Below the pieces are notes generated by a model. The model had not been told where the DNA came from and made no database searches. It worked only from the letters and a program-made list of their open reading frames with translations. A DNA stretch of 21,942 nt from a virus. The position numbers and the translations under genes were made by a program. The stretch is from the IMG/VR virus record IMGVR_UViG_3300040815_003420, positions 1 to 21,942 of that record. One strand, written 5' to 3'. Positions 8,932 through 21,942 of this stretch are shown here, one piece after another (the stretch's first letter is position 1; each line of letters opens with the position of its first letter).

Positions 8932-11900
8932 ATGTCAAGGATTGATTTAGATAACATATTAAAAAGATTAAACGAAGAGATTTTGGAAAATCCACTATCT
9001 CCGATTAATCAACGCCCCAAAATTTCTAAAATTATTAAAAAAGGGAGAAGAAAAGACGAACTTGGACTTCCGAGTATATTAAGACCTATAAAAGATTTAC
9101 CACAGGTATCATTATCAGACAAACCATTACCTTCAGTAAAAGAAGAGTATGTATCTGAAGAGTTAAATACAAAACCTGCAGAACAAGCCCAAGATTCTTT
9201 TGATATTCTTGATAGTGCAGTTGATTTTACCCTTGAAGTGGTAGATGAAGTTTCTATCGAAGTACCCGATATTCGAAGTATTCAATATCCTAAAGAAATT
9301 AGGGGTGGTGATTTCATTGGATATGATGTAGATTTTCAAATTTCATTTTTGGCAACACCAACAACATCTTATGTAGATATTGGAATTGGTAGAGTTAAAA
9401 ACGCATTAAGAAGAACTGCAAATGAACGAAACCCGTTTGCAAAACAGCAAGGTAGGGATGTATATGAAGAACCCACACCAAATGATAGCTATGTTTTAAA
9501 ATTTAATGTAAAGGAACTATTAATCAACTATCTCGATTTAGAAGGTACTGAAGGTATTGATATTATTAAAATTCCATTTACATTAACTCCGGTAAACGCA
9601 AATGGTAAAAAACCTGTTAATGGAAAGACGGAAACATTTACAGTAGTATTTGATAAAGGTGATTTAGAGATACCAAGGTCAGTTGCTGTTAATAGAATTG
9701 TTGAGGCATTTAAATCACAATTAAACAACAACATATTCTCAGATTCTAAGTACTTAACTCACTTAGCACATTTAGGTGATGGTGACAATAAATTAATTGC
9801 TAATTGGGCACCAAACACTCAGGATAATTCGTTAATTCTTAAATTATATGAACCACTTCCTGCAAGTGTTCAACCAAACCAAAAGGTATGGATATCTAAA
9901 CTTCAATCAGAACCATTTATTGAAACAATAACATTAAATGGTGAAGATGTGGATTACTGTCCACCACTTCAAGGGCCTAATTTTTCTTTAGAAGTAGATA
10001 GTGGAATTGGTTATCAGATTTATGACGATTTATTAGCAAGTGGTTCTCAATCATCTACTAACTTAGTAAATGCGTACACATCAACTCTTGGTATTGATAC
10101 TGAAAAGTTGACTATTCAATACGTAAGTGGTTCCGATTATACTTTTGAAAATTATGTAAGATTTGGTTCTGCAGAAGAAAGGATTAAAAACTTTTGGTAC
10201 AAGGTAGAATTACTTGAGGGTTATGAAGAATCTCTATCGGGATTGACTGGAGTCGAAGTAGAGGTTGGTACAATAGAAACTGAAGATGGATTTGTTCTTC
10301 TTACGGAAGATGGTAAAACATTAAGTATTGATTCACTTTCAATTACACAACAAACACAGGTTGAAGCAACTAAAGTAACCAATAATATTAATTCATTAAT
10401 TCGTACTTTCGATGGATTTGAAAAATTCTTATACTCTTCATCTGATGATTTAGCATACCCAAAAAGTGGAAACACTCTTGTAGCATCTACATCAAATGAT
10501 GCTCAAACTTGGTATAATTCAGCAATAAATTATGCTGCTAATTATGATAAGAATAATGTAAACTATTTAATTAATAACTTACCTGAATATCTAAGAGAAG
10601 ATTACGATAACGAAGAATATATGTTGTTCTTAGATATGATAGGACAACACTTTGATGTTATTTGGGCATATATCAACGGTATTTCAAATTCTAAAAAATT
10701 AGAACACAAAGTTACCACAGGTATTCCCGATACATTGGTCTCACATATGTTAGAATCATTTGGTTGGGATGATAGAAGAGCATATGATTCACAATTCCTA
10801 TGGGAATATGCGTTAGGATTAAACAAAGATGGTACTCAAAAGTATGATAGAAGTTTAAAAGATGCTAACGAAGAAATTTGGAGAAGAATCTTAAATAATT
10901 TACCATATTTACTAAAACATAAAGGTACTAAACGTTCTTTAAAAGCAATACTTGCAACATATGGTATTCCACAATCACTTCTTACGATTATGGAATTCGG
11001 TGGACCTCAAGACCCAACACGAGGTGGTAGTACATCATTTACGTTTGAAGATAGAACTGCTGCAATTAAATTAAGTGGTTCACAATACATTAAAACCTAT
11101 TGGAATCAAAGTGAAACGATACCGGGTAGTGTAGAATTAAATGTTAAATTCGATGAAGCTGGAAATCATGGATTACTATACAACACGACTACTAATGGTG
11201 AAGATGTTGCATGGAAACTTGAGGCAATTCAAACTACTGGTTCCTTCGGTAAAATTAAATTAAGCATATCAGGTAGTTCAGAATTAAAAGAACTCGAATC
11301 ATCTGAAATTAGATTGTTTAATGATGTGTATAAACACATTACATTAACTCGTGAAGAATCATCTCCATCACATTCAATAAACCTTTACGTAAAAGAAGCA
11401 AAAGGAGATAGATTACGAATTGATGATTTACAAACTTTAGAAATTGAAACAACTAATGGTTGGGATACTCATGATTTACTTAAGGTAGGTGGTAACGAAA
11501 TTAATGGAAGTAGTGATATCGCAGGAGGATTGACAGGTTCAATTGATGAATTTAGAATTTGGAAAACTCCTCTTGAAAACACCGTAATTACAAATCATGC
11601 TAAAATACCTGATGCTATTAATGGTAACAACTATACCGCATCATCTGAAGATTTATTATTAAGACATGATTTCGAATATCCAAAAAATAGACACTCGAGT
11701 GGAGATGTTGAAATAATCAACGTATCTATAAGTAACGAGTATGTAGATGGAGCAACAGAGCCTGTAACAAGTTCTATTGCAGTTGGGTTTGCTAATTTAT
11801 CATCGTATCCATATAATTATGAATCTTATGAAAGAAGTGTAACTGCACAAGTTCCTTCAATGGGATTCAATTTTGCTAACAAGATTAGATTTGAATCTCA

Positions 11901-13143
11901 AACTGATTTAAATGGTAATGATGTTTCTAATGGAATTGCTTTATCTCATAGAGTAAGGGCAACTAAAAAATCATTTGACCAATCTCCTGTGGATTCCCCT
12001 AAATTAGGATTATTCTTCTCGCCAACAAAGGAGTTGAATATGGATATTCTAAAATCAATGGGTAATTTTAATATTGATAATTATATCGGTGACCCACGTG
12101 ATGAGTACAATGATGAATATTCAGAACTCAATACTCTTAGAGAATACTACTTTGAAAGAATTAATTTAAATGTTCAAGAATATATTCAACTTGTTAGAAA
12201 CATTGATAAATCATTATTCGATGTACTTACCGATTTAGTCCCTGCAAGAGCAAAAGTTGCTAAGGGTTTATTGATTGAACCTCACATTCTTGAAAGAAGT
12301 AAACAAAAATGGGAAAAACCAACTTCTGAAAAAAGAGATTATGAAACTGAAATAAACATCGATGATAATAATCAAATTGAATTAACTTATGATGTTCAAT
12401 TAGCAGAAATAAATGTTGATGATGGTGTAACTTTTGAACCTTCATACGATACATATGATGGAACTTTAGAAGCAAACGATGAAATTAACTTAGTATCTAA
12501 TTACGATACATATCAGGGACTTATTTCAGGTTCAGATGCTATTACCTTAACAGGTGATTATCCTACTTACGTAGGTGTAGCACAAACTACACTTGGAGAA
12601 GAATTGACAGCTGTAGTTAACTTATCAGATTTTACATTTGTAGGTCAGGAAGATGGTGGATTTGGATTGTATGCATCTGCATCACATGGTAAAGTAACTA
12701 CATTAGATGCGTTGGGTAATATAACTTCAAGTAGACAACAAATTTTTGGTATAGACGAAACTTTTGAGGTTGCAATAACTGTTTGGGGAGACCCATTTAA
12801 CGCGGGTGCATATGCACCATATACTGATTATATTACAAAACCAAAATTTGTGATAGCTAAACAACCATTTGGAAGTACTCCACCATCTGCACCAAAGAGT
12901 TTACCCGGTGGTAAGGAAATAGTTGAAGTAACTCCATTAAATGGTTATTTCCCATCACACTATAAGTTTGTGAAAAACCATTCTTTAGGATTTGAAAGAA
13001 GTTTCTTCAGAGGTTCACAGCAAACAACAGCAACTACTCCCGATGGATTATCACCAGTAGAAACTATTACTACTAATCCAAATATCTTGAAAGTTGCTGA
13101 TACGGGAAGAGGTTCGGGTGAACCAATCCTTGAGGTTGATTGA
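8932..13143 (+). CDS. Large baseplate/tail-tip protein with P2 gpI-like core, LamG-like domain and 19-residue repeats
   Basis: The 1403-residue product is the largest complete gene here. Residues 1-110 are a charged linker. Residues 110-450 are beta-rich (IRSIQYPKEIRGGDFIGYDV, SLILKLYEPLPASVQPNQKV). Residues about 545-690 resemble tail protein I: LPEYLREDYDNEEYMLFLDM near 550, then NNLPYLLKHKGTKRSLKAIL and ATYGIPQSLLTIMEFGG near 655-690; the 'LPYLL+HKGT' helix followed by a second helix is the family's hallmark. Residues about 713-893 look like a LamG/concanavalin-type lectin domain (SGSQYIKTYW, HITLTRE, SINLYVK, GGLTGSIDEFRIWKTPL). Residues 1144-1219 hold four 19-residue repeats, and the final 180 residues form another beta domain. 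It starts 25 bases after the previous stop. It probably forms the outer wedge and carries host-binding or fibre-binding domains. The gpI-like and LamG calls are by pattern. Confidence 0.88.
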   Translation: MSRIDLDNILKRLNEEILENPLSPINQRPKISKIIKKGRRKDELGLPSILRPIKDLPQVSLSDKPLPSVKEEYVSEELNTKPAEQAQDSFDILDSAVDFTLEVVDEVSIEVPDIRSIQYPKEIRGGDFIGYDVDFQISFLATPTTSYVDIGIGRVKNALRRTANERNPFAKQQGRDVYEEPTPNDSYVLKFNVKELLINYLDLEGTEGIDIIKIPFTLTPVNANGKKPVNGKTETFTVVFDKGDLEIPRSVAVNRIVEAFKSQLNNNIFSDSKYLTHLAHLGDGDNKLIANWAPNTQDNSLILKLYEPLPASVQPNQKVWISKLQSEPFIETITLNGEDVDYCPPLQGPNFSLEVDSGIGYQIYDDLLASGSQSSTNLVNAYTSTLGIDTEKLTIQYVSGSDYTFENYVRFGSAEERIKNFWYKVELLEGYEESLSGLTGVEVEVGTIETEDGFVLLTEDGKTLSIDSLSITQQTQVEATKVTNNINSLIRTFDGFEKFLYSSSDDLAYPKSGNTLVASTSNDAQTWYNSAINYAANYDKNNVNYLINNLPEYLREDYDNEEYMLFLDMIGQHFDVIWAYINGISNSKKLEHKVTTGIPDTLVSHMLESFGWDDRRAYDSQFLWEYALGLNKDGTQKYDRSLKDANEEIWRRILNNLPYLLKHKGTKRSLKAILATYGIPQSLLTIMEFGGPQDPTRGGSTSFTFEDRTAAIKLSGSQYIKTYWNQSETIPGSVELNVKFDEAGNHGLLYNTTTNGEDVAWKLEAIQTTGSFGKIKLSISGSSELKELESSEIRLFNDVYKHITLTREESSPSHSINLYVKEAKGDRLRIDDLQTLEIETTNGWDTHDLLKVGGNEINGSSDIAGGLTGSIDEFRIWKTPLENTVITNHAKIPDAINGNNYTASSEDLLLRHDFEYPKNRHSSGDVEIINVSISNEYVDGATEPVTSSIAVGFANLSSYPYNYESYERSVTAQVPSMGFNFANKIRFESQTDLNGNDVSNGIALSHRVRATKKSFDQSPVDSPKLGLFFSPTKELNMDILKSMGNFNIDNYIGDPRDEYNDEYSELNTLREYYFERINLNVQEYIQLVRNIDKSLFDVLTDLVPARAKVAKGLLIEPHILERSKQKWEKPTSEKRDYETEINIDDNNQIELTYDVQLAEINVDDGVTFEPSYDTYDGTLEANDEINLVSNYDTYQGLISGSDAITLTGDYPTYVGVAQTTLGEELTAVVNLSDFTFVGQEDGGFGLYASASHGKVTTLDALGNITSSRQQIFGIDETFEVAITVWGDPFNAGAYAPYTDYITKPKFVIAKQPFGSTPPSAPKSLPGGKEIVEVTPLNGYFPSHYKFVKNHSLGFERSFFRGSQQTTATTPDGLSPVETITTNPNILKVADTGRGSGEPILEVD
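12361..12588 (+). repeat. Four tandem 57-bp/19-residue repeats inside the 1403-residue protein
   Basis: Starting at residues 1144, 1163, 1182 and 1201, four contiguous 19-residue units align without gaps. The shared pattern is x-D-x-I/V/F-x-L/F-x-x-x-Y-D/P-T-Y-x-G-x-L/I, with YDTY or YPTY in units 2 to 4 and YDVQ in unit 1. Copies are well diverged at the DNA level, so this is an old protein repeat, probably a small beta-solenoid or beta-hairpin stack. Confidence 0.85.
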
Positions 13144-16185: not shown

Positions 16186-16599
16186 ATGCAAAATTGGTTA
16201 CACGAAAATACAGAGGTTACTGATGAAAGTATCCCTGAGGGAAGTGAAGGATTCGTATATAAGATTACTCACATCCCAACGGGCAAATACTATATTGGTA
16301 AAAAATCTCTTTGGGCACATAGAACCTTACCACCTTTAAAAGGTAAGAAACGAAAGCGTAAGGTTATCAAAGAATCGGATTGGAAGAAATATCATTCATC
16401 TAACGATTGGATTAAGGAACAAGTAAAGGAAGGAAACGAGGATGATTTCAAACGAGAAATCATTCAATTCTGTCCTTCTAAAAAATCACTAACTTATTAC
16501 GAACTACGTTGGCAGATGTACTACGATGTACTTGCCGATGATAACTGTCTGAATGAAAACCTTTTAGGTAAATTCTATCGAAAAGATTTGTTATTATAA
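16186..16599 (+). CDS. GIY-YIG nuclease (SegE-like)
   Basis: The 137-residue product carries a GIY-YIG domain near its N-terminus: GFVYKI at 22-27 in place of GIY and YYIGKKS at 35-41 containing YIG. A basic stretch (KGKKRKRK) follows, then the WKKYHSSNDWIKEQVKEGNE segment and YYELRWQMYYDVL, where the Glu is a likely metal ligand, and CLNENL near the end. This arrangement is that of the SegE-type GIY-YIG proteins of T4-like phages, some of which act as free-standing homing nucleases. It could equally serve host-DNA degradation or phage DNA processing. No extra DNA-binding domain (such as an NUMOD) is visible. It lies exactly between the structural block and the replication block and starts five bases after the preceding stop. 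Confidence 0.85.
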   Translation: MQNWLHENTEVTDESIPEGSEGFVYKITHIPTGKYYIGKKSLWAHRTLPPLKGKKRKRKVIKESDWKKYHSSNDWIKEQVKEGNEDDFKREIIQFCPSKKSLTYYELRWQMYYDVLADDNCLNENLLGKFYRKDLLL

Positions 16600-16903: not shown

Positions 16904-17869
16904 ATGATTAGAACCGCAGAATGTGTATCCCCCATGCATCCCGATAAGATGTGTGATAGAATCTCGGATACGTTATTAGATTTACATTTAAAACAAGACC
17001 CAAACTCACGATGTGCAATTGAAACGTGTGGAGGTTTGGGTGAGGTGTATATTACAGGAGAAATTACTTCAGAAGCAATAGTTCTTGCACCTCAAATAGA
17101 AGAGATAGTTAAGATTATTACCAGAGATGAAAACATTAAGGTAATTATTAACCTTAATCAACAATCTCCTGAAATTGCTAATGGAGTTGATACGGGTGGT
17201 GCAGGTGACCAAGGAATTATGACTGGTTATGCTTGTAGAGAAAATGACCAATATCTTCCACAAGAATACTTCCTAGCACGAGAGCTCAATAAGTTCATCG
17301 TTGAGGTGTTCCCGTTTGATGGTAAAACTCAAATTACTTTAGATAGAAATCGCGTAAGAGTGGTTGCATCTTTCCAAAATGCACCAACAACTGAATTGTA
17401 TCAATTAGTAAATGATTTCTTTAAATCATATCCACAATACACTTTAGAACAAATTCATTGTAATCCCGCAGGTGATTGGAACATTGGTGGGTTTACTGCG
17501 GATGCAGGTTTGACAGGTAGAAAACTTGCAGTAGATAACTATGGTCCTCGTATTCCAATCGGCGGAGGTGCGTTTAGTGGTAAGGATTCAACCAAGGTTG
17601 ATAGAAGTGGTGCATACATGGCTCGTAGAGTTGCGGTGGATATATTAGAACAAAATCCTGAAGCACAAGAAGTATTTGTTCAACTTGCTTACGCAATCGG
17701 ATATGACCAACCATTACAAGCAACTGCAGTAATTGATGGAGTGGAAACTAAGATTCAGGGTTATGATTTATCACCTCAGGGTATTATCAATTTCTTAAAA
17801 TTAAGAGAACCAATTTTTGGAGATAGTGCATCATTCGGACATATGGGTGCTGGATTTTCTTGGAAATAA
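16904..17869 (+). CDS. metK: S-adenosylmethionine synthetase, compact phage form
   Basis: The enzyme makes S-adenosylmethionine from methionine and ATP, releasing phosphate and pyrophosphate. The 321-residue product keeps every family signature I can check: HPDK at 12-15, the ligand-binding Glu at 40 and 53, QQSPEI at 86-91, GAGDQG at 99-104, the DGK pair D139/K141, GLTGRK at 202-207 and GGGAFSGKD at 220-228 followed by KVDRS. It is shorter than bacterial MetK (about 384 residues). The loss is in surface loops, in the stretch before the D139 motif and in the C-terminal tail; it ends at GHMGAGFSWK, where the bacterial enzyme has about 15 more residues. It therefore looks active. It has its own Bacteroidetes-type promoter and lies upstream of primase. 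No methyltransferase or SAM lyase is in the window, so the consumer of the SAM is unknown. Confidence 0.95.
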   Translation: MIRTAECVSPMHPDKMCDRISDTLLDLHLKQDPNSRCAIETCGGLGEVYITGEITSEAIVLAPQIEEIVKIITRDENIKVIINLNQQSPEIANGVDTGGAGDQGIMTGYACRENDQYLPQEYFLARELNKFIVEVFPFDGKTQITLDRNRVRVVASFQNAPTTELYQLVNDFFKSYPQYTLEQIHCNPAGDWNIGGFTADAGLTGRKLAVDNYGPRIPIGGGAFSGKDSTKVDRSGAYMARRVAVDILEQNPEAQEVFVQLAYAIGYDQPLQATAVIDGVETKIQGYDLSPQGIINFLKLREPIFGDSASFGHMGAGFSWK

Positions 17870-17901
17870 TTTGGAATTAAATAAATAAATTCGTATATTT
17901 G
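17870..17901 (+). promoter_or_regulatory. Bacteroidetes-type promoter 3 (before primase)
   Basis: TTTG at 17870-17873, a 20-bp spacer, then TATATTTG at 17894-17901, a perfect TAnnTTTG box preceded by TTCG. Only six bases separate the box from the ATG at 17908, so a transcript starting at the usual distance would be leaderless or nearly so. Confidence 0.75.
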
Positions 17902-17907
17902 GTCCAA

Positions 17908-18849
17908 ATGATTTCTACAAGGGACAAATTAAAAGTAATTAATGTACTTGATAGTACACTCGGAGTGGGTACCTCACTAAAGGGAAACGAACAGGCTCAC
18001 CATTGTCCTTTTTGTCATCATCACAAGAAAAAACTCCAAGTAAATTTAGAAACACAATACTGGCATTGTTGGGTGTGTAACTCTAAAGGTAGAAGTATTC
18101 AATCACTTCTTAAACGTTTACACGTTAATTACTCTCAGATAAATGTAATCATTGGTATCTATGGTGACCAACCAACATCTACATCAAAAGATGTAGAAGA
18201 AAAGATACAACTTAGGTTACCATCGGAGTTCAAATCGTTATTACAAAAACCAAAATCAATCAATCCAATATACAACCAAGCACTTGCATACCTTAAACGA
18301 AGGGGTATCTCAATGGATGAAGTAAGTAAGTACAACATTGGATATTGTGAAGATGGTTTATATGGTGGTAGAATTATTATCCCATCATACGATGAAGATA
18401 ACGAACTAAATTACTTTATTGCAAGAACATTCTATGAGGATGTGGGAATGAAATATAAAAACCCACCTGTTAGTAGAGATGTTATTATATTTGATAATCA
18501 AATCAATTGGAATGAGCCAATTACTTTAGTAGAGGGTGTGTTTGATTCATTCTCAGTAAAAAGAAACGCAATCCCAATGTTGAGTAAGTTTTTGCTATCA
18601 AAGTTAAAAACAAAGATACTTGAAAGGGGTGTAACGGAAATCAACTTACTAATGGATTCAGATGCAGTAGAAGATTCTACCAAACATACTGAGTACTTTA
18701 TTAAGAACGGAATCAAAGTAAGAAATATTATACCTCAAGGTGAATCCGATGCAGCAGATATGGGATTTGATAAGGTAAATGAATTATTAAAAGAAACCGA
18801 AGAAACGGGATGGGATAATCTTATCCTTTCCAAATTAAATAATTTATGA
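17908..18849 (+). CDS. DNA primase (gp61/DnaG-like)
   Basis: The 313-residue product primes lagging-strand synthesis, normally together with a gp41-like helicase that is not in this window. A zinc-ribbon of the CHC2 type occupies residues 31-61, with C33 and C36 (HHCPFCHH) and C54 and C57 (WHCWVCNSKG). The Toprim domain follows: a YLKRRGISMDEVSKYNIGYC lead-in, the catalytic glutamate E209 in LVEGVFDSF, and the DxD pair D250/D252 in LLMDSDAVED. Length is close to T4 gp61 (342). I choose ATG 17908. A TTG at 17899, in frame, lies inside the -7 promoter box and is not needed, and the next in-frame Met falls after the zinc-ribbon. The stop codon overlaps the following ATG in ATGA (18846-18849), coupling it to the recombination fusion gene. 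Confidence 0.92.
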   Translation: MISTRDKLKVINVLDSTLGVGTSLKGNEQAHHCPFCHHHKKKLQVNLETQYWHCWVCNSKGRSIQSLLKRLHVNYSQINVIIGIYGDQPTSTSKDVEEKIQLRLPSEFKSLLQKPKSINPIYNQALAYLKRRGISMDEVSKYNIGYCEDGLYGGRIIIPSYDEDNELNYFIARTFYEDVGMKYKNPPVSRDVIIFDNQINWNEPITLVEGVFDSFSVKRNAIPMLSKFLLSKLKTKILERGVTEINLLMDSDAVEDSTKHTEYFIKNGIKVRNIIPQGESDAADMGFDKVNELLKETEETGWDNLILSKLNNL

Positions 18850-21800
18850 TAGTAGAAAAAATCTACCATTTAGCGGATTTACACATTCGTAACTTAAAAA
18901 GACACAAAGAATATCGTTCGGTATTTGAAAAGTTCTTAGAGAACGTAAGAAAAGATGATATTGAAAAATCAGTTATTTATCTTGCAGGTGATATTGCTCA
19001 TGCTAAAACTGAGATGTCTCCTGAACTTGTTAGAGAAATCAGTTGGTTTTTAACTGAATGTGCAAAACTAAAACACACATTTTTAATCACGGGTAATCAC
19101 GATTGTAATCTCAATAACGATTATCGATTAGATGTATTAACACCAATCGTAGAAAATTTAAACAATGACAGAATACACTATTTACGAGATACTGGCACTT
19201 ACAACTTTGGTAATCTCACTTTTGTGGTTTATTCGATACTCGATAAAAAAGAGAATTGGCCAAAGGCGGAATTGGTAGATGGTGAGAATAAAATTTGTTT
19301 ATTCCACGGACCAGTAAATAAAGCACAAACCGATGTAGGATACACCGTATCATCAAACTCATTTACAGTCGATATGTTCGATGGATTTGATATGGTGATG
19401 TTGGGTGATATCCACAAACGTCAAACATTCGGTGAAGGTTACGAACACATTGCTTACGCAGGTTCAATGATTCAACAAAATCATGGAGAACTCCTCGAGA
19501 ATCATGGTTACTTATTATGGGATGTAGAATCTCGTACCTTTGAAGAGTTCCATATTCATAACGATTATGGTTATTTAACCGTTGATGTAGTGGATGGGGA
19601 GATTCCTCAATGGGTTTATGATGAAGTTGATACCAAACTACCAAAGTACCCACGTTTACGTCTTAGATTCACTCGTACTGAACCGAGTGATACAAAACGT
19701 TGTGTGACAGAACTTAAGAAACTCTTTAAGGTGTCTGAAGTAACGGTAACACGTACTGATACTATTGGACAACTTAAAACCAATCAAAATGTCAACAAGA
19801 ATATTGTTGGTAACGTCAAAGATGAAACTTTTCAAAATCAACTGATTCGTGATTACTTGGAAAGACAGTTTTTGTTAGATGGTGATGAATTAGATAAGAT
19901 TGCTGAAATCAATAAAGAGATAAACTCTCAGGTTGATGATACTAAAGTTGCAGAGAATGTACTATGGGTACCAAAGACATTTGAGTTCTCTAATATGTTC
20001 TCCTATGGTGAAGGTAATAAAGTAAGATTCGATAATGCAAAAGGAATTATGGGAATCTTTGCTCCTAATGCATCAGGTAAATCTTCACTTTTTGACGCAC
20101 TCTCCTTTTGTATCTTTGATAAATCATCACGTACCTTCCTTGCTAAGAATATCATGAACAATCGTAAGGATTGGTTCAAATGCAAGTTCCACTTCCAAAT
20201 CAATGATATAGATTACTACATTGAAAGAAGGGCAAAAACAGTCAGTAAAGGAAAGAGTGTTAAGGTTGATGTGGATTTCTGGTCTGAACAAGGTGGAGTG
20301 ATAACATCTCTTAACGGAGAACAACGTAGAGATACCAACCACATGATTCAACAATACTTAGGTAGTTATGATGATTTCGTATTAACTGCACTATCTCTAC
20401 AAGGAAACAATGCGTTGTTCATTGATAAATCCCAAACGGAAAGAAAGGAAATTCTTTCACAATTTATTGGGGTGGATATCTTTGATAAATTGTATCAACG
20501 TGCGAATGAAGAGTTTAAAGATACTACTACACTCATCAAAAAATTCAAGAGGGATGATTTTACGACTAAACTTGCCGACATCGACACCCAATTAGTTGAG
20601 AAGAAAAACGAATATAAGTTACTGACAACTCAACATGAAGCACTCAAAGAAGAAGAAGAAACTTTAAATAAACAAATCATCTCATTGAACGAGAAGATTA
20701 TTAAATTGAGTGCAGATAGTGGTAAATCAATTGATGAACTCGAAACTACTCACCAATCACTTATTGATAGAAAGAGTAAAATAATTGAACTTAGAGAATC
20801 CATTCAACATCGTATTAACGAAAAAGAAGAGATTCAGATTGAGTTAGAAGAGCAAATCGATGGGTATGATGAAGATAATATTACAAAACGATATAAGGAA
20901 TACACCGACCACGTTGAGGATTTAAAACAACTCAACATTGAATTGGATAAGATGAAAATTCGTGAGGATTCCTTAAAAGAAAGAATCGAACACGTTAAAT
21001 CACATGAGTACAATCCTGAATGTGAAATATGTTTAAAAAACTCTGAAGAGTATATCGATGCAAAGATGAGTTTACAATCTGAACTATCTATTCTTGTTGA
21101 GCAGATGGTTGAGATAAACACGAGTAAAGAATCGATAGAATCATCATTAGAAATTAATTCAGAAGTAAACCAACAGTTTACTAATTTAAATAAACTTAAG
21201 GTAGAAGAAGATAAGATTGATAGAGAAATATCAGGACTTATTAACAAGTTATCAACAACCGAAACTGAAGAATTACGTTTAGATGCACAAGTTACGGAGT
21301 ATCAGAACTTAATCGATGAATATTACAAGAACGAAAAAACTATTGAAAAGAATCGTGAGATTCGTGCTGAGATTAGTGAAGTTCGTAAAAAGTTAGATGG
21401 TATAAAGAAAGAAATTAAAACTACTAACACCAATGTCCTTTCACTTAATGGTAAGGTATCATCACTTCAGAATCAGAAAGAAACTATCGAGGAAAGAATC
21501 AACGAGGTTAAAGATTTAGAAGAACAACACCGATTGTTTGAGTATTACCTAAACTCATTGGGTAAGGATGGTGTATCGTATGAATTGATTTCTAAGGCAC
21601 TTCCAATGATTGAGGGAGAGGTAAACAACATCCTAACTCAAATCGTAGAATTTGGGATGCAGTTGGAGATGGATGGAAAAAACATCAACGCATACATCGT
21701 TTACGATGACCAGAAATGGAGTTTGGAGATGTGTAGTGGTATGGAGAGGTTCATCAGCGGATTAGCAATTAGAATCGCTCTAATCAATGTATGTAACCTA

Positions 21801-21942
21801 CCTCGTCCTAACTTCTTAGTTGTGGATGAAGGGTTTGGAACTTTGGATAACGAAAACCTTACATCATTGTATATGTTGTTCGCTTATCTAAAAACTCAAT
21901 TTGATTTTGTGATGATTATTTCTCACATCGATTCAATGAGAG
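18846..21942 (+). CDS. Mre11-Rad50 (SbcD-SbcC, gp47-gp46) fusion protein, 3' end outside window
   Basis: A single frame of 1032 codons runs from ATG 18846 to the window edge with no stop; I checked the frame at 19389 and 20061. Residues 1-about 330 are a calcineurin-like Mre11 nuclease: D11/H13 (ADLHIR), D49 (AGDIAH), N84/H85 (GNHD), H154 (LFHGP) and D188/H190 (GDIHKRQ). A helical linker (about 330-380) leads into a Rad50-type ATPase that begins near WVPKTFEFSNMFSYGEG: Walker A 406-414 (APNASGKSS), a coiled coil interrupted by a zinc hook C726-x-x-C729, signature SGME (964-967), Walker B D994/E995 (VVDEG), D-loop GTLD and H-loop His at 1027. In T4 these are two proteins, gp47 and gp46, acting in end resection and recombination-dependent replication. 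Here they are fused in that order. The end of the window is close to the usual C-terminus. Confidence 0.93.
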   Translation, partial: MIVEKIYHLADLHIRNLKRHKEYRSVFEKFLENVRKDDIEKSVIYLAGDIAHAKTEMSPELVREISWFLTECAKLKHTFLITGNHDCNLNNDYRLDVLTPIVENLNNDRIHYLRDTGTYNFGNLTFVVYSILDKKENWPKAELVDGENKICLFHGPVNKAQTDVGYTVSSNSFTVDMFDGFDMVMLGDIHKRQTFGEGYEHIAYAGSMIQQNHGELLENHGYLLWDVESRTFEEFHIHNDYGYLTVDVVDGEIPQWVYDEVDTKLPKYPRLRLRFTRTEPSDTKRCVTELKKLFKVSEVTVTRTDTIGQLKTNQNVNKNIVGNVKDETFQNQLIRDYLERQFLLDGDELDKIAEINKEINSQVDDTKVAENVLWVPKTFEFSNMFSYGEGNKVRFDNAKGIMGIFAPNASGKSSLFDALSFCIFDKSSRTFLAKNIMNNRKDWFKCKFHFQINDIDYYIERRAKTVSKGKSVKVDVDFWSEQGGVITSLNGEQRRDTNHMIQQYLGSYDDFVLTALSLQGNNALFIDKSQTERKEILSQFIGVDIFDKLYQRANEEFKDTTTLIKKFKRDDFTTKLADIDTQLVEKKNEYKLLTTQHEALKEEEETLNKQIISLNEKIIKLSADSGKSIDELETTHQSLIDRKSKIIELRESIQHRINEKEEIQIELEEQIDGYDEDNITKRYKEYTDHVEDLKQLNIELDKMKIREDSLKERIEHVKSHEYNPECEICLKNSEEYIDAKMSLQSELSILVEQMVEINTSKESIESSLEINSEVNQQFTNLNKLKVEEDKIDREISGLINKLSTTETEELRLDAQVTEYQNLIDEYYKNEKTIEKNREIRAEISEVRKKLDGIKKEIKTTNTNVLSLNGKVSSLQNQKETIEERINEVKDLEEQHRLFEYYLNSLGKDGVSYELISKALPMIEGEVNNILTQIVEFGMQLEMDGKNINAYIVYDDQKWSLEMCSGMERFISGLAIRIALINVCNLPRPNFLVVDEGFGTLDNENLTSLYMLFAYLKTQFDFVMIISHIDSMR

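Follow-up and report, generated by a model that had tools for sequence, protein, structure and literature searches.

A natural fusion of the Mre11 nuclease with the Rad50 ATPase was described in mimivirus, as protein R555, by Yoshida, Claverie and Ogata in 2011 (PMC3175470), together with twelve more fusions from bacteria, plasmids, eukaryotes and Bacillus phage 0305phi8-36. R555 has a histidine in motif II and an aspartate, Asp242, replacing Pyrococcus His206; the same study noted that fusions keep a helix-loop-helix and have a tether, and claimed several origins for Mre11/Rad50 fusions (PMC3175470). It also reported that R555 relatives are abundant in metagenomes of aquatic samples, that viral fractions are enriched for them and that phage primase genes adjoin them, and suggested that some of these relatives are phage-borne (PMC3175470). 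Here we analysed a 21,942-base stretch of viral DNA (the window), which is the entire IMG/VR record IMGVR_UViG_3300040815_003420, and found that its last gene is a phage member of this already known R555-type kind. The original prediction, made from the letters alone, had supposed that similar phage fusions may exist unremarked; phage fusions do exist, but the architecture was already described in 2011 (PMC3175470). We found no biochemistry of a natural Mre11–Rad50 fusion in the open literature, a weak absence, as subscription papers lay mostly outside the search.

We assign a probability of about 0.88 to the reading that this gene, from a large myovirus, encodes a single-chain ATP-dependent nuclease of Mre11–Rad50 (SbcDC) type that belongs to the R555-type fusion family. 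The open reading frame (ORF) begins with ATG and is free of stops over 1032 codons. Because the window is the whole record, the contig end truncates the frame, and approximately 20 C-terminal residues are absent; the complete length is 1052 amino acids in a 99%-identical relative (L002). Pfam places Metallophos at residues 5–191 (7.3e-9) and AAA_23 at 382–618 (2e-12), both passing the curated cut-off, PHROG 77 (SbcC-like) matches residues 283–1030 (8.9e-48), and solved Mre11 and Rad50 chains match the corresponding halves. From sequence, the predicted product links an Mre11/SbcD nuclease to a Rad50/SbcC ATPase bearing a CxxC hook. The single open frame with the motifs of both halves, and the natural fusion of phage origin that had been proposed, are thus confirmed. 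Features of the gene are given below; conservation was measured in an alignment of 49 non-redundant relatives (A1), to which 'invariant' refers.

18846..21941, + strand: fused Mre11–Rad50 gene, 1032 codons seen, open at the contig end
18876..18884, + strand: metallophosphatase motif I, D11-L-H13; D11 and H13 invariant
18987..19001, + strand: motif II, G48-D49-I-A-H52; G48, D49 and H52 invariant, the histidine as in R555
19092..19103, + strand: motif III, GNHD 83–86; G83-N84-H85-D86 invariant
19305..19307, + strand: motif IV, H154; invariant
19404..19415, + strand: motif V, GDIH 187–190; G187-D188-I189-H190 invariant, aspartate replacing the usual first histidine
19551..19760, + strand: Mre11 capping domain, approximate, residues ~236–305, from split-Mre11 alignments and strands in the structure model
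19824..19931, + strand: Rad50-binding helix pair of Mre11, 327–341 and 346–362, from profile alignment and model
19932..19964, + strand: tether of ~11 residues, 363–373, coil in the model; predicted local distance difference test (pLDDT) <50 at 367–371
19995..19997, + strand: internal ATG, Met384, within the conserved Rad50 motif FSNMFSYG
20052..20084, + strand: Rad50 Walker A, GIFAPNASGKS 403–413; G411-K412-S413 invariant
20391..20411, + strand: Rad50 Q-loop, LSLQGNN 516–522; Q519 invariant
21021..21032, + strand: zinc hook CEIC 726–729 within the coiled coil; C726 and C729 invariant (A1, and also A2)
21732..21746, + strand: ATP-binding cassette (ABC) signature, CSGME 963–967; S964-G965-M966-E967 invariant
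21813..21848, + strand: Walker B plus D-loop, FLVVDE..GTLD 990–1001; D994-E995 and D1001 invariant
21924..21926, + strand: H-loop His1027; invariant

All five metallophosphatase motifs expected of Mre11/SbcD are present in the nuclease half, and the Rad50/SbcC set (Walker A, Q-loop, CxxC hook, signature, Walker B, D-loop and H-loop) is complete. Every motif that the original prediction named was found and is conserved, with the correction that motif V reads GDIH and not GHxH. The gene shares with the R555-type family, R555 being compared by description, the order of domains in one chain (nuclease N-terminal, ATPase C-terminal), the capping domain and helix-loop-helix followed by a short tether, the motif II histidine (H52) and the motif V aspartate (D188, which is not specific to fusions). 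As for the R555 relatives abundant in aquatic viral samples, a primase gene lies close by. R555 itself differs in being 1351 amino acids long and from an amoeba virus, whereas the window fusion is of ~1052 amino acids and from a myovirus-like phage. The best fold comparisons were with giant-virus fused repair proteins (Tupanvirus, E 3.7e-66, 24% identity), with the fused proteins of phages pT24 and PTm1 also among the closest folds, and the PDB fold list was headed by solved Mre11 and Rad50 complexes.

The join recurs in independent assemblies, a check that the original prediction had proposed. All 80 relatives from a first IMG/VR scan (47–99% identity) carry the fusion in one frame, 64 of them complete and the rest cut by contig ends only, and no split version occurs among these 80. 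A broader scan returned at least 588 relatives; among the 80 of these that were kept, some from the same contigs as the first scan, 66 have the complete gene as a single frame and 14 are cut. The full-length architecture is also a single annotated gene in isolated phages, namely Microcystis phage Mel-JY01, Tenacibaculum phages PTm1 and pT24, Chryseobacterium phage MA9V-1 and Sphingomonas phage PAU, so that the fused form sought in phage proteins was found in both IMG/VR relatives and cultured phages. These jumbo-phage fusions resemble the window gene in having the same halves in one gene; the Mel-JY01 protein is 38% identical, and those of PTm1, pT24, MA9V-1 and PAU are more distant and 1300 amino acids or more in length. 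In the isolate genomes the gene goes under the labels metallo-phosphoesterase, DNA repair, AAA domain protein or gp288, which conceal the fused architecture. Against an 89%-identical relative (L003), the ratio of non-synonymous to synonymous substitution rates is 0.047 for the nuclease and 0.011 for the stretch made up of helix pair and tether, and the two ATPase lobes give 0.021 and 0.005; purifying selection acts on both halves and across the join.

The segment between the halves had been taken for a helical linker that replaces the Rad50-binding part of Mre11 and removes the need for docking. A profile of the fused N-terminal region aligns with split phage Mre11 over residues 6–361 (hhalign probability 98.8), and residue 361 is essentially the C-terminal end of the split phage proteins. 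In the structure model, helices at 327–341 and 346–362 are followed by coil (363–373) and by the first Rad50 strand (374–382). Alignment and model together indicate that residues 330–380 are the Rad50-binding helix pair of Mre11 itself, kept, plus a tether of approximately 11 residues. As this pair is retained, docking is kept too, and neither earlier claim about the linker holds. In the Thermotoga complex the Mre11 C terminus lies ~28 Å from the Rad50 N terminus, a gap that nine to twelve extended residues bridge (PMC3175470). The ~11-residue tether fits this gap and so permits, without proving, that nuclease and ATPase of the same chain pair; swapping between chains may also occur. The earlier idea that fusion dictates which nuclease partners which ATPase is accordingly unproven.

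The same region bears on whether one frame nevertheless yields two proteins, either because translation starts again near Met384 or because a protease cleaves the tether, which we consider improbable. An ATG is present at 19995, Met384 is conserved and model confidence in the tether is low. However, Met384 sits past the first Rad50 strand, in the N-terminal core of Rad50 and inside a conserved motif, and synonymous sites near 19995 are unconstrained, the same-codon frequency being slightly under average (z = −1.1). We therefore rejected an internal start at 19995, and the re-initiation that the original prediction had named as a possible refutation finds no support. The missing Shine–Dalgarno site at 19995 is no argument either way, because the true fusion start also lacks one, in the window and in related contigs.

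A single-chain enzyme of this kind may work much like its two-protein counterparts. Two chains would dimerise through their nuclease domains and, with ATP bound, through their Rad50 heads, which would yield the usual assembly of two nucleases and two ATPases. The C-terminal helix pair of Mre11 would dock at the base of the coiled coil, most likely in its own chain, with the tether leading on to Rad50, and the CxxC motif could link two coiled coils through zinc. Hydrolysis of ATP would then open the heads and allow the nuclease to reach DNA ends or hairpins. By analogy with T4 gp46/gp47, the likely role in the phage is DNA-end processing, that is, resection and cleaning of ends for recombination-dependent replication, and perhaps breakdown of host DNA too.

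Several points weigh against this reading. We infer the dimer, metal use, activity, same-chain pairing and role from knowledge of the family. The structure model has a mean pLDDT of 73.8 and a predicted template modelling score (pTM) of 0.38, and its P-loop and final 30 residues are modelled with low confidence; it therefore does not establish the arrangement of domains, and no interdomain geometry was drawn from it. The motif V aspartate could alter metal binding, a concern tempered by its presence in split T5-like D12 proteins (GDLH). GHxH is found in T4 gp47, in E. coli SbcD and in the fused PAU protein (GHIH in the latter two). We considered the aspartate as a hallmark of fusion and rejected it, given the split GDLH and fused GHIH proteins.

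A defence or counter-defence nuclease related to structural maintenance of chromosomes (SMC) proteins, similar to Lamassu, has also to be weighed against a repair enzyme: the PADLOC LmuB model matches residues 389–1026 (3.8e-33) and Lamassu structures appear among the PDB matches. LmuB is itself Rad50-like, however, so that such a match is expected, and Mre11–Rad50 and Mre11 entries outrank Lamassu in the PDB fold list. The nuclease half is a metallophosphatase and the neighbouring gene a replication primase. We rejected this interpretation, which we regard as highly improbable, as the Rad50-like fold accounts for the LmuB match.

Split pairs provide a further comparison. T5-like D12/D13 and T4 gp47/gp46 share with the fusion their domains, the order of nuclease then ATPase and the C-terminal helix pair of the nuclease, and the T5-like nuclease also shares a GDxH motif V. 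They differ in being encoded by two genes, which overlap in T5-like phages and have small genes between them in T4; nuclease, small gene(s) and ATPase is the order in T4, Staphylococcus, cyanophage and Xanthomonas phages. Cellular Mre11–Rad50, like SbcCD of E. coli, resembles the fusion in domain content, motifs and solved-structure matches, but both systems consist of two proteins; E. coli SbcC alone has 1048 amino acids, and E. coli SbcD differs in motif V. Because D12 and D13 overlap by 14–20 bases, nuclease first, a fusion could arise from such a pair by one small change. A single indel could likewise join the two genes as a frameshift, chimera or assembly error, but we give next to no credence to this and rule out such an artefact, as several isolates and 64 independent contigs with the complete gene show the same join and purifying selection spans it.

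In an unrooted tree built from ten fused proteins and an equal number of split pairs, from phages only, fused and split proteins separate, the jumbo-phage fusions grouping with the window gene; ultrafast bootstrap (UFBoot) support is 99 with both halves combined, 92 with the nuclease and 86 with the ATPase. A single origin of the fusion among the sampled phages is plausible. The tree cannot address the several origins claimed in 2011, because it has no giant-virus, plasmid or bacterial fusions. It is possible, although we hold it doubtful, that one old viral fusion event founded all jumbo-phage fusions as well as the giant-virus R555 family, moving between bacterial and eukaryotic viruses and displacing the two-gene version.

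The fusion belongs to the standard, conserved genes of a large group of aquatic phages. Fusion-bearing contigs among the IMG/VR relatives reach 288 kb. In 12 of 12 larger contigs the fusion is the sole full-length Rad50 match, and the remaining metallophosphatase matches are separate, smaller proteins; the fusion therefore presumably performs the whole job there, although none of these contigs is scored ≥90% complete and a second Rad50 copy could thus lie elsewhere. Natural single-chain enzymes of this type would be useful for structural and single-molecule work because their stoichiometry is fixed and partner exchange limited, and the cultured carriers (Microcystis phage Mel-JY01, Tenacibaculum phage PTm1 and Chryseobacterium phage MA9V-1) make the role of the fusion testable.

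Upstream, in 81 of the 82 loci long enough to show it, lies a primase gene:

17899..18849, + strand: DnaG-like primase gene, overlapping the fusion start by 4 bases; conserved neighbour

The window also encodes a gp25-like baseplate wedge and another baseplate gene, which suggests a myovirus-like phage.

A first scan of genome contigs found nothing; a second returned 15 loci, and several of these are fusions located on short metagenome-bin contigs. One fusion, inside a WOR-3 assembly and next to phage-like genes, is probably phage sequence. Two loci (L198:5001-5834 and L199:1409-2314, Bacteroidota-assigned) encode the nuclease half alone, of 277 and 302 amino acids; the former gene lies downstream of a primase-like gene with no Rad50 nearby. 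These two loci may have lost the ATPase half or may represent a split relative.

Some relatives depart from the common form. One fusion (L052:5001-7991) has a frame that is intact except for the lack of ~57 residues, corresponding to most of the capping domain, and is either a true variant or an assembly error. In a 484-kb phage (LR756508; L083:6671-7588), the fusion is interrupted just past motif V by an ORF whose product carries a TnsA-like endonuclease domain (Pfam 5.8e-6); this is likely to be an intron or other mobile insertion, with no known intron detected there by Rfam. The fusion of a 735-kb phage (L084:6001-9606) has degenerate Walker B and D-loop regions (DEVINRLV).

Within the window gene, identity to the 99%-identical relative falls from ~0.99 to 0.83–0.85 over the final 250–400 bases (21546–21942). 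The differences are nearly all synonymous, and the drop reflects either intragenic recombination or a mosaic contig end. A second, smaller dip occurs at 20796–20945.

Elsewhere in the window, a 1403-amino-acid ORF (8932–13143) matches nothing in Pfam or PHROG. Between a GIY-YIG gene and the primase lies an S-adenosylmethionine synthetase gene (16904–17869), called from Pfam domains (best 4.2e-35), whose matching PHROG 1569 carries no function label; it occurs in only 2 of ~70 related loci long enough. The GIY-YIG endonuclease gene, of SegE type (16186–16599), is present in 69 of 83 related loci and falls under PHROG 447, for which the label NAD synthetase looks wrong.

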